Shown in pieces: positions 15,300 to 57,342 of a stretch of DNA of 64,000 nt. The DNA is from Marinococcus halotolerans DSM 16375. GTDB taxonomy: Bacteria > Bacillota > Bacilli > Bacillales > Marinococcaceae. The DNA lies in NCBI RefSeq assembly GCF_000420725.1, contig NZ_ATVM01000013.1, positions 1 to 64,000 of the forward strand, written 5' to 3'. Below the pieces are notes generated by a model, which did no database searches, had not been told where the DNA came from, and saw only the letters and a program-made list of their open reading frames with translations. Both the position numbers and the translations under genes were made by a program. Numbering within the stretch: position 1 is the stretch's first letter; every line of letters starts with the position of its first letter.

Positions 15300-16190
15300 A
15301 TGATCAAACACTATCAGAATATTCTCACAGCTGTGGACAGTTCGGATGAATCTATGCAGGCATTCCGCCGCAGTCTCTCACTGGCCAGGAAACACCAAAG
15401 CCAGCTGACGGTCGCCCATGTTGTGGAGTACAGAACATTGAACCGCCTGATTCAATATATACCGACTATTATGGAAACGGCGGGAGAACAGGGAAAAGTA
15501 TTGTTAAACATGTACAAAGCAGAGGCTGAAGGAGCTGGCGTGAATATCCAGACAATAATGGAAACCGGCGTACCAAAAACCATTATTACTAAAGATCTCG
15601 CTCCAGATTATGAGACCGATTTGATTATTACCGGCGCCTCCGGGGCTGGAACAGTCGGACGCTTCATTATGGGAAGTGTTTCCACCGGCATCGTGCGCAA
15701 TGCCAAATGCGATGTCCTCGTCGTCCGGAAAAAGGATTCAGACAGTGACTATAAGAGGATCATCATTGCCATCGACGGCTCGAAAGAAGCAGCCCATGCC
15801 TTTGAAAAAGGAATTGCGCTCGCAATGGAAGAAAATGCAGCTGTGCTGATCACGCATGTAATTGATTCAGTGGTACTCACCTCTATGGAGCAGCATGACA
15901 CCGGGCTGTTTATCGAAATGGAAAGCTACTCTGAAAAAATGCTTGAAGAATACCGGGAAAAAGCCGTGAATGCCGGCCTCGAGCACGTAGAAGCAGAGCT
16001 TCACCACGGAGCTCCTAAGGTCGTTATTGCGGAGGATTTAGCTAAAAAGTATAAAGCCGATCTGATTGTCGTTGGCGCCTCCGGCCTGAATACGACAGAG
16101 CGGTTTTTCCTCGGCAGCGTTTCGGAGGGTATCGTACACCGGGCTGATTGTGACGTTTTACTGGCCCGCCTGCCGGAAGGAGAACAATAA
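15300..16190 (+). CDS. Tandem universal stress protein (two UspA domains)
   Basis: A 296-residue paralogue of the divergent gene at 14152-15039. Domain one (about 1-145) has TAVDSSDES at the start and GASGAGTVGRFIMGSVSTG; domain two (about 150-296) has AIDGSKEAA and GASGLNTTERFFLGSVSEG. Both nucleotide-binding loops are intact. The ribosome site before the ATG at 15300 is weak (GCGGGGCG). The gene ends in a strong hairpin shared with the convergent polyol operon. The role is general stress tolerance; ligands and triggers are unknown. Confidence 0.92.
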   Translation: MIKHYQNILTAVDSSDESMQAFRRSLSLARKHQSQLTVAHVVEYRTLNRLIQYIPTIMETAGEQGKVLLNMYKAEAEGAGVNIQTIMETGVPKTIITKDLAPDYETDLIITGASGAGTVGRFIMGSVSTGIVRNAKCDVLVVRKKDSDSDYKRIIIAIDGSKEAAHAFEKGIALAMEENAAVLITHVIDSVVLTSMEQHDTGLFIEMESYSEKMLEEYREKAVNAGLEHVEAELHHGAPKVVIAEDLAKKYKADLIVVGASGLNTTERFFLGSVSEGIVHRADCDVLLARLPEGEQ

Positions 16191-38602: not shown

Positions 38603-39826
38603 TTAGGAGGAGGATGCCTGCCGTTTTTTTGATTTCGCACGTTCATTGCGAATGCGCTGACGATAGCCATAGGTCGCTTTGAGCACCGTTTCTTCACTTT
38701 CAAGCCCTGCACCCAGAGCCCCGCCAAGCGTAGCGACCGTGCAGGCAAGCCAGGATATTTTCAGGTACGTCGCAAACGTCACGGTCCCCTGTAGATTTAA
38801 TGCCAGCTGTGAGGTGGGGATAAACAGCAGAGAAACAACTAAAAACATTACGAATAAAATAATATAATAATGAATAATAGCAATCCCGATTGTAGCGGTC
38901 GTAGCTTTATTATAAGAGCGCACCAAAAATTTGGACTCAGCATTTGATTCTTTTTCCCACAAGCCATGGGCAACGATAAACCATACAGTCATAGCCACCA
39001 TGGCCGTAAACATAACAGCAAGAAAGCGCCAGAATCCATACGTGTCACTCAGCATCCAGAAGCTTGGAAAGATCAGTCCGTAAGCACCGGTAGCAAAAGC
39101 TAAAGCAATTACACGCTTAAATGCCGGAAAAATCGTCCAGGGCCGGTTTGCGAGCACCATGCCCGAAAGCAGCCTCGTACGTCCTCTCATATTCAGGTTA
39201 GCATAGAAACGGACGTGCTGGCTTTCTTCTTCATTAGAGTATACCGTCCGTTTAATCGGAGAAAAGCGCTCATACAAACGGCTCCCCATCAACTCCCTTG
39301 ATCCTCTTCCCCGGACCTGATAGGAATGTTCGTCCTCATGATCTTCGAGCTGCTCCTGGTTTTCTGTGATACGTTCATTCTGCCGTTCCCGATCTTCTTC
39401 CAGGCTTCCATGATGCATTTCGTTTACAAGCTGCATCATTGCCTCACGGACGCGCTTTCTCATTGGCATGGCTCCCAGGGATGGCAGGGAAATGAGACCG
39501 ATTTCCCGATCTGCACTGGCGTCAGCTATCACCAGTTTTTTCCCGTCTACAATTGGGAGATCCGTAAAACAGAGGGCATAATCCCATTCATGCTTTTGTT
39601 TATGTTTCTGTGCTTCCTCAATCACCGGTTCTGATTTTTCTATCACTCCGGCAAAAGGATCAAGAACCACTTCCACTTCCCAGTTTCTCCGGTCATCTAC
39701 ATAGTTTTTGAGCAAATCAGGCAGCTCTTCTGCCATCTCATCGCAAATATCCTTTGGCAGCTCCGGAGCAGATATCAATCCGAGTGTATAGCTCTCCGGT
39801 GAATGTTTGTTTTTCTTCGAAGCCAT
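38603..39826 (-). CDS. Uncharacterised membrane protein with N-terminal soluble domain
   Basis: A 407-residue protein. Residues about 10-145 form a soluble alpha/beta region (YTLGLISAPELPKDICDEM, YALCFTDLPIVDGKKLVIA). Residues 145-200 are a charged linker rich in Glu, Arg and Gln. About 225-385 hold four membrane segments (for example VIALAFATGAYGLIFPSFW and YYIILFVMFLVVSLLFI). The tail is basic (RQRIRNERAKSKKRQ). AAAGGAGG precedes the ATG at 39826. I recognise no characterised family. It stands alone and is divergent from a metallo-hydrolase. Confidence 0.75.
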   Translation of the reverse strand: MASKKNKHSPESYTLGLISAPELPKDICDEMAEELPDLLKNYVDDRRNWEVEVVLDPFAGVIEKSEPVIEEAQKHKQKHEWDYALCFTDLPIVDGKKLVIADASADREIGLISLPSLGAMPMRKRVREAMMQLVNEMHHGSLEEDRERQNERITENQEQLEDHEDEHSYQVRGRGSRELMGSRLYERFSPIKRTVYSNEEESQHVRFYANLNMRGRTRLLSGMVLANRPWTIFPAFKRVIALAFATGAYGLIFPSFWMLSDTYGFWRFLAVMFTAMVAMTVWFIVAHGLWEKESNAESKFLVRSYNKATTATIGIAIIHYYIILFVMFLVVSLLFIPTSQLALNLQGTVTFATYLKISWLACTVATLGGALGAGLESEETVLKATYGYRQRIRNERAKSKKRQASSS

Positions 39827-39980
39827 CGGTGTTCCTCCTTTCTCTAAAGTGTTTTAAAAATAAGCCCAACGATAAGGTATCATACTTTGATCCTTTTCCA
39901 TACACGTACATTTTTCTATTAGGCACATGTTATAGATAAAAGAAAATGAGGAATGATTCCTTTAGGTTCATTATTAATAC

Positions 39981-40015
39981 AAGGAGGTGAACCGAAGCTA
40001 AGTGCTTCGGCCGCT
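39981..40015 (+). promoter_or_regulatory. Ribosome site separated from its ATG by a perfect hairpin
   Basis: AAGGAGGTGA at 39981-39990 is a near-perfect Shine-Dalgarno, yet the first good in-frame start is ATG at 40016, 28 bases past GGAGG. Between them CCGAAGC (39992-39998) and GCTTCGG (40004-40010) form a perfect seven-pair stem with a TAAGT loop. Folding it leaves an effective spacing of nine bases. No in-frame ATG, GTG or TTG lies between. Confidence 0.6.
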
Positions 40016-40741
40016 ATGAAGCTGACAGAAACTATGCACGTACTCGAGCTTTCTGTGCCCCGGGGAACAGACACAATGGTACTAAACTTAACTCTCATGA
40101 ATGACGGAGGACGTCTGATTCTCTTTGACACAGGTATGCCCGGGTACGAAGAAGAAATATACGAATTGATACGAAAGGAAAATTTGAACCCCGATCATCT
40201 TGATACTGTCATTCTGACCCATCAGGACATTGACCACATTGGGAGCCTCCCGGAAATTCTTCACGACCATCCGCAACTGCGTGCTCTCGTCCATCATGCC
40301 GACAAGCCTTACGTGGACGGAGAAGAGCCGCTGATCAAACTCAGCAGCAGCGCCAAAGCAAATCTAATCGACACTCTTCCGGAAAAAAAGCGGGACAGGG
40401 TTGGCTATATGCTCGATAAAACTGAACCCTCGCTAATTAATGAAACCATAAAAGAGGGAAATACACCTGTGGAGGGACTGACCGTAGTGCATACGCCCGG
40501 CCATGCTCCCGGACACGTCAGCCTCTATCACGAAAACAGCCGGACGCTTATTGCGGGCGACGCTTTGACTGCTCAAGACGGCGAACTTTTCGGGCCCCGC
40601 GCAGAAGTCACGCCAGACATGGAACAAGCCCGCCGTTCTCTGGAAAAGCTGCTCGATTTCGATATGACTACTGCGGTTTGTTACCACGGCGGCGTAGTAC
40701 ACGGAGATATTAATCAAAAAATCCGGGAAATCTTATCCTAA
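40016..40741 (+). CDS. MBL-fold metallo-hydrolase
   Basis: A 241-residue metallo-beta-lactamase-fold hydrolase. The metal motif is LTHQDIDHIGS near residue 69; further ligands are in VHTPGHAPGHVSLY near 156 and IAGDAL near 178. The C-terminal His in CYHGG near 221 completes a two-metal site. Start ATG at 40016 depends on the hairpin-spaced ribosome site just upstream; the only earlier in-frame ATG (39953) has GAGG directly abutting it, which is poor spacing. Substrate is unknown; similar proteins act on thioesters or lactones. Ends at a bidirectional terminator. Confidence 0.85.
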   Translation: MKLTETMHVLELSVPRGTDTMVLNLTLMNDGGRLILFDTGMPGYEEEIYELIRKENLNPDHLDTVILTHQDIDHIGSLPEILHDHPQLRALVHHADKPYVDGEEPLIKLSSSAKANLIDTLPEKKRDRVGYMLDKTEPSLINETIKEGNTPVEGLTVVHTPGHAPGHVSLYHENSRTLIAGDALTAQDGELFGPRAEVTPDMEQARRSLEKLLDFDMTTAVCYHGGVVHGDINQKIREILS

Positions 40742-57176: not shown

Positions 57177-57342
57177 AAAAACCCCTTGTCCCAAAAAATT
57201 GAGGGAAAAGGGGCTGTCAGTTCAGCTTTTTCGCCTCTTATCTTTCAAGGCATCTGTGTGCCTCTCCAGGTTAGCACCTTTCCGTTCCCGGATGGTTGCT
57301 GGGCTTCTCAGGGACTGTCCCTCCACCTGCTCAGGATAAGAG
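57177..57342 (-). promoter_or_regulatory. SAM-I (S-box) riboswitch with terminator, metK leader
   Basis: On the minus strand the aptamer (57342-57235) starts CTCTTATCCTGAGCAGGTGG, then AGGGACAGTCCCTGAGAAGC, CCAGCAACC, AAAGGTGCTAA and GAAAGATAAGAG, which closes stem P1. These are S-box landmarks. The expression platform at about 57214-57177 is CCCCTTTTCCC, a loop, GGGACAAGGGG and five T. High SAM should terminate metK transcription. Confidence 0.95.

Follow-up and report, generated by a model that had tools for sequence, protein, structure and literature searches.

The gene for an MBL-fold metallo-hydrolase in the 64,000-nt stretch of Marinococcus DNA analysed here (the window) is probably preceded by a hairpin-bridged, or split, ribosome binding site of the type described for phage T4 genes 25 and 38, a reading to which we assign a probability of roughly 0.78. 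In this arrangement, the 19-nt mRNA segment at 39992-40010 would fold into a stable 7-bp hairpin between the Shine-Dalgarno (SD) sequence and the AUG, while the 16S tail of the 30S subunit would pair with AAGGAGGUGA. The subunit would leave the hairpin folded and extruded, so that GGAGG and AUG would be seen as 9 nt apart rather than 28 nt, an effective spacing within the Bacillus optimum. Of the features that define a split site of the T4 gene 25/38 type, all those open to testing on sequence are present, and function in the cell is predicted.

Architecture of the MBL hydrolase leader

The MBL hydrolase gene (40016-40741, + strand) encodes a 241-aa protein matching Pfam PF00753 (4.9e-28). Its SD, AAGGAGGTGA (39981-39990, + strand), is the same in all five Marinococcus species compared, and all 10 nt are complementary to the 16S 3′ end, GGATCACCTCCTTTC, as found in two congeners (with five copies in G001). 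GGAGG ends at 39987 and the ATG (40016-40018, + strand), which is kept in all five species, lies 28 nt downstream, giving a strong SD with an overlong spacing and neither a closer SD nor a closer in-frame start. The interval holds a perfect stem formed by a 5′ arm, CCGAAGC (39992-39998), and a 3′ arm, GCTTCGG (40004-40010), around the loop TAAGT (39999-40003), and is completed by a linker of the form NCGCT (40011-40015; CCGCT in the window), all on the + strand. With the 19-nt hairpin folded, 9 nt remain, and the optimum SD spacing in Bacillus subtilis is 7-9 nt (PMC7392706). A preliminary description of this DNA had reported a 28-base gap from GGAGG to the start, a perfect seven-pair stem with a five-base loop, and a folded spacing of nine bases as the usual optimum; the gap proved exact, the stem and loop can be read directly at 39992-40010, and the folded spacing agrees with the B. 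subtilis range. When 1.26 Mb of the window's genome was sampled, a perfect hairpin of at least 7 bp was present in 0.59% of 28-mers.

A putative extended −10 element (TG-T-TATAGA, 39928-39936, + strand) lies within a block that is invariant in the five species and was not recovered by a −35/−10 consensus scan. Transcription would begin near 39943, giving a leader of ~73 nt.

The start codon of the MBL hydrolase gene

The arrangement depends on where the gene begins, and ATG 39953 is the sole other upstream in-frame ATG, GTG or TTG in the window. A gene beginning there would encode a 262-aa protein, with AAGGAGGTGA and the inverted repeat as internal coding sequence. The preliminary description had named a start at this codon as a finding that would count against a split site, and we checked it by sequence comparison. 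In the window, as in G004, the frame is open back to 39953, but the codon at that position is ATA in G001, G002 and G003, where there is no other upstream ATG, GTG or TTG. In M. halophilus, a TAA in this frame stands directly before GGAGGT, between the 39953 codon and 40016. Read as protein, the stretch from the SD to the ATG is GGEPKLSASAA, GGESKLSASAA, GGEPEPSASDA, GGEPKPSASAA and GGEPELTASAA in the five species, with amino acids changing freely, and the first methionine of homologues with 33-36% identity aligns with Met 40016. Distant homologues also have normally spaced SDs (AGGAGG-AATTT-ATG, GGAGG-CTGAACGT-ATG and AGGAG-TGATGAT-ATG). Since 39953 is unavailable in three species, and given the homologue N-termini and the normal SDs of the homologues, the start is, as judged from these comparisons, the distal ATG 40016. 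A start at 39953 is ruled out in three of the five species, and we consider it hardly credible. With the start at 40016 and the homologue SDs at normal distance, the long spacing is thus a Marinococcus feature.

Other potential initiation events in the leader were rejected. The mini-ORF GTG CTT CGG CCG CTA TGA at 40002, which would end in an ATGA overlap, lacks its GTG in G001 and G003; a leader ORF running from ATG 39946 to a TGA in the SD has no SD of its own, and its start is missing in M. halophilus; and a CTG at −18, at good spacing, is present in M. halophilus only.

Conservation of the hairpin across Marinococcus

Conservation was assessed in the window genome and four other Marinococcus genomes (G001-G004), representing five species. 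Among named relatives, Marinococcus luteus, M. halophilus and an uncultured Marinococcus stand nearest to the window's 3.14-Mb genome. All five species retain the SD, the ATG, the 28 nt between GGAGG and ATG, and every one of the seven pairs. The 5′ arms read CCGAAGC, TCGAAGC, CCGGAGC, CCGAAGC and CCGGAGC, and the opposing GCTTCGG is identical throughout; each stem change turns C-G into U-G or A-U into G-U, and standard pairs fill 100% of the stem pair cells. Four of the five loop positions vary, while the CGCT of the linker is invariant. Variable columns number 2 of 14 in the stem versus 6 of 8 in the loop and immediate flanks (Fisher p = 0.008), a value that is descriptive because the structure was chosen from the same sequences. 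At four-fold sites of the MBL gene, 66% are variable, and pairwise differences are 1-14% over 80 nt of leader versus 14-46% at four-fold sites. Conservation spans the whole leader between the putative promoter and the ATG. These comparisons appear to provide a good argument for the stem, but one that is not independent of its surroundings, since the whole leader is constrained and the conservation of the stem is partly shared with it. The preliminary description had proposed looking for covariation in homologous leaders, and the outcome was divided: the stem is kept throughout with pair-preserving changes only, but strict two-sided covariation is absent, with no two-sided compensatory change at any stem pair among the five species.

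A covariance model of the leader matched each Marinococcus genome once and gave no credible match in 36 further genomes, and the SD-AUG bridge, kept in Marinococcus, is absent from the distant homologues.

The same inverted repeat could act as a DNA operator for a regulator rather than as an RNA hairpin, with the very strong SD simply tolerating a long spacing, and its form (a perfect 7+5+7 palindrome just downstream of the putative promoter) would suit such a role. However, the exact palindrome is unique in the genome, matches with two or fewer mismatches occur at the control rate (52 versus 48, both strands counted), and the changes in the relatives break the DNA symmetry while RNA pairing is kept via G-U every time, making an operator very unlikely. 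A repeated element or regulon was also rejected, as the palindrome is unique and the leader occurs once per Marinococcus genome.

Energetics of initiation on the folded leader

The isolated hairpin has a predicted stability of −10.9 kcal/mol in the window and −8.6 to −10.9 kcal/mol across the five species. Initiation was estimated with a simple balance of SD pairing with the AUG region single-stranded, which ignores tertiary limits in the 30S channel. The net was −6.9 to −12.4 kcal/mol for initiation on the folded hairpin and −1.6 to +3.8 kcal/mol for the melted one, the latter before any spacing penalty. Hairpin-kept initiation is therefore ahead by about 9 to 12 kcal/mol in this estimate, with the 28-nt penalty excluded. 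The modelled energetics favour initiation with the hairpin kept, and we infer that the ribosome leaves it folded. Counting against the bridge, the predicted folds contain the weak extension GGUG:CGCU in every species and, in three, strongly pair the AUG, which would reduce initiation.

Outer helices and a possible translational switch

The minimum free energy folds of all five species add two weak helices to the hairpin. The first, P2, is the extension GGUG:CGCU, in which the CGCU of the linker weakly pairs with the GGUG of the SD, and the second, P1, is UUAGGUUCAU:AUGAAGCUGA, in which the 5′ half at 39962-39971 (+ strand) pairs with 40016-40025 and so includes the start codon. Together these helices could form a translational switch, in whose closed state P1 (UUCAU:AUGAA) and P2 mask some of the SD as well as the start codon, and in whose open state the bridge alone is folded; a ligand, a protein, an RNA or ribosome occupancy would then set the masked/open balance. 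Pairing in both P1 and P2 is possible in each of the five species, all 9 pairs of P1 are kept (two via G-U changes), and leader columns vary at 12 of 25 unpaired positions versus 4 of 40 paired ones (p = 0.0008, descriptive for the reason given above), within a leader whose conservation, as noted, extends to the putative promoter.

The 3′ side of P1 is, however, coding sequence and constrained anyway, and predicted masking of the AUG is strong in three species but weak in two (AUG unpaired 0.65 and 0.73) and hardly shifts between 30 and 45 °C. In four of the five species, the predicted stability of the stem is nearly constant between 10 and 65 °C, which also led us to reject an RNA thermometer. 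A comparison of 39850-40100 with Rfam gave no family at E up to 1, the MBL leader showed no ligand or protein site, and each genome carries a single copy of the element and no regulon. The preliminary description had suggested a switch acting on the stem through a ligand, a protein or temperature, and the analysis yielded nothing that shows one. A switch is thus an unlikely alternative, and we infer that the split site is mainly constitutive.

A competing stem, GGTTCA/TGAACC (39965-39970/39988-39993), would hold the SD in its loop and rival the bridge for CC. Its pairs are kept in the five species with G-U changes, but it was rejected as predicted to be rare, with a probability of at most ~0.04 in four species and 0.3 in M. 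halophilus.

A possible second bridge, before a sugar-porter gene

A survey covering 2.04 of the 3.14 Mb of the window's genome (1,954 ORFs) sought starts with no near SD that have a strong SD 17-52 nt upstream and a single hairpin bridging the two. For most matches, another start with a normal SD was available, and reading the matches without such an alternative left the MBL gene and one sugar-porter gene only. Matches L056, L057, L145, L169, L135, L085 and L059 were rejected because they lie inside genes that start further upstream or are not real genes. The sugar-porter (MFS) gene (G000:C8:13913-15349, − strand; leader around 15349-15398) has a hairpin between SD and ATG, its leader reading GAAAGGAGG-AAGGAAGGGAGCGCCTTTCCCTTCTT-ACATTCAA-ATG, and of the four Marinococcus genomes compared with it, G001 and G004 also have a hairpin at the corresponding place, G004 despite a strongly diverged leader sequence. 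It appears to be the one other convincing candidate for a bridge in the 2.04 Mb surveyed. Sequestration instead of bridging is a serious alternative for this leader, because the 5′ arm is itself SD-like.

The Marinococcus bridges might also be regulated devices, the MBL leader as a three-helix element with the bridging hairpin as its fixed core, P1 covering the AUG and P2 covering some of the SD, and the sugar-porter leader as an independent case; translation would be turned on when the outer helices open and the bridge remains folded. We regard this as improbable.

Relation to known split sites

In T4 gene 38, the precedent for hairpin-bridged sites cited in the preliminary description and borne out by the literature, a hairpin cuts the SD-AUG distance from 22 to 5 nt, and in T4 gene 25 from 27 to 11 nt (PMC3014915). 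The Marinococcus leader is alike in that a strong SD is too distant and an intervening hairpin would shorten the distance, here from 28 to 9 nt. The gene 25 split site is confined to close relatives, distant relatives being without the arrangement (PMC3014915), and the MBL bridge is likewise kept in the genus and missing in distant homologues. Unlike the T4 examples, the Marinococcus case concerns a chromosomal gene of a Bacillota halophile, is known here from sequence alone, and apparently has its own promoter and leader rather than lying at an intercistronic junction.

SD-sequestering leaders and RNA thermometers also place local structure at the initiation region, and the weak P1 and P2 helices could partly mask the SD and AUG in a similar way, but the main Marinococcus hairpin holds neither SD nor AUG and, unlike RNA thermometers, is predicted to have no thermal response in four of the five species. 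In Escherichia coli thrS, the hairpin lies upstream of the SD and serves as the ThrRS operator, and the SD-AUG spacing is not shortened. The split site of thrS is nevertheless similar as a hairpin on a chromosomal mRNA that the ribosome accommodates without unfolding (PMC3936740).

A literature search, with subscription papers mostly outside it, returned bridged SD-AUG spacing from T4 genes 38 and 25 only and no bacterial chromosomal SD-AUG bridge; priority is not claimed. Conservation of a chromosomal bridge throughout the genus, with another candidate elsewhere in that genome, indicates that the arrangement can arise and persist in cellular genes. Gene callers and ribosome binding site predictors that use linear spacing alone can choose the wrong start in such a gene (here ATG 39953), and the MBL leader would lend itself to testing the amount of folded RNA that the 30S subunit can accommodate between SD and P-site.

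Neighbouring features and the encoded protein

A divergent gene (38603-39826, − strand) encodes a predicted membrane protein of 407 aa that matches neither Pfam nor NCBIfam; the region upstream of this gene is shared with the MBL leader, and the gene's start is conserved in all five species. Elsewhere, a SAM riboswitch (RF00162, 63.4 bits; 57235-57342, − strand) is the only Rfam match in the window. The MBL protein itself also matches the ODP diiron-type family weakly and carries HQDIDH instead of the usual HxHxDH metal motif, with Asp in place of the second His, and this HQDxDH form is conserved in distant MBL homologues.
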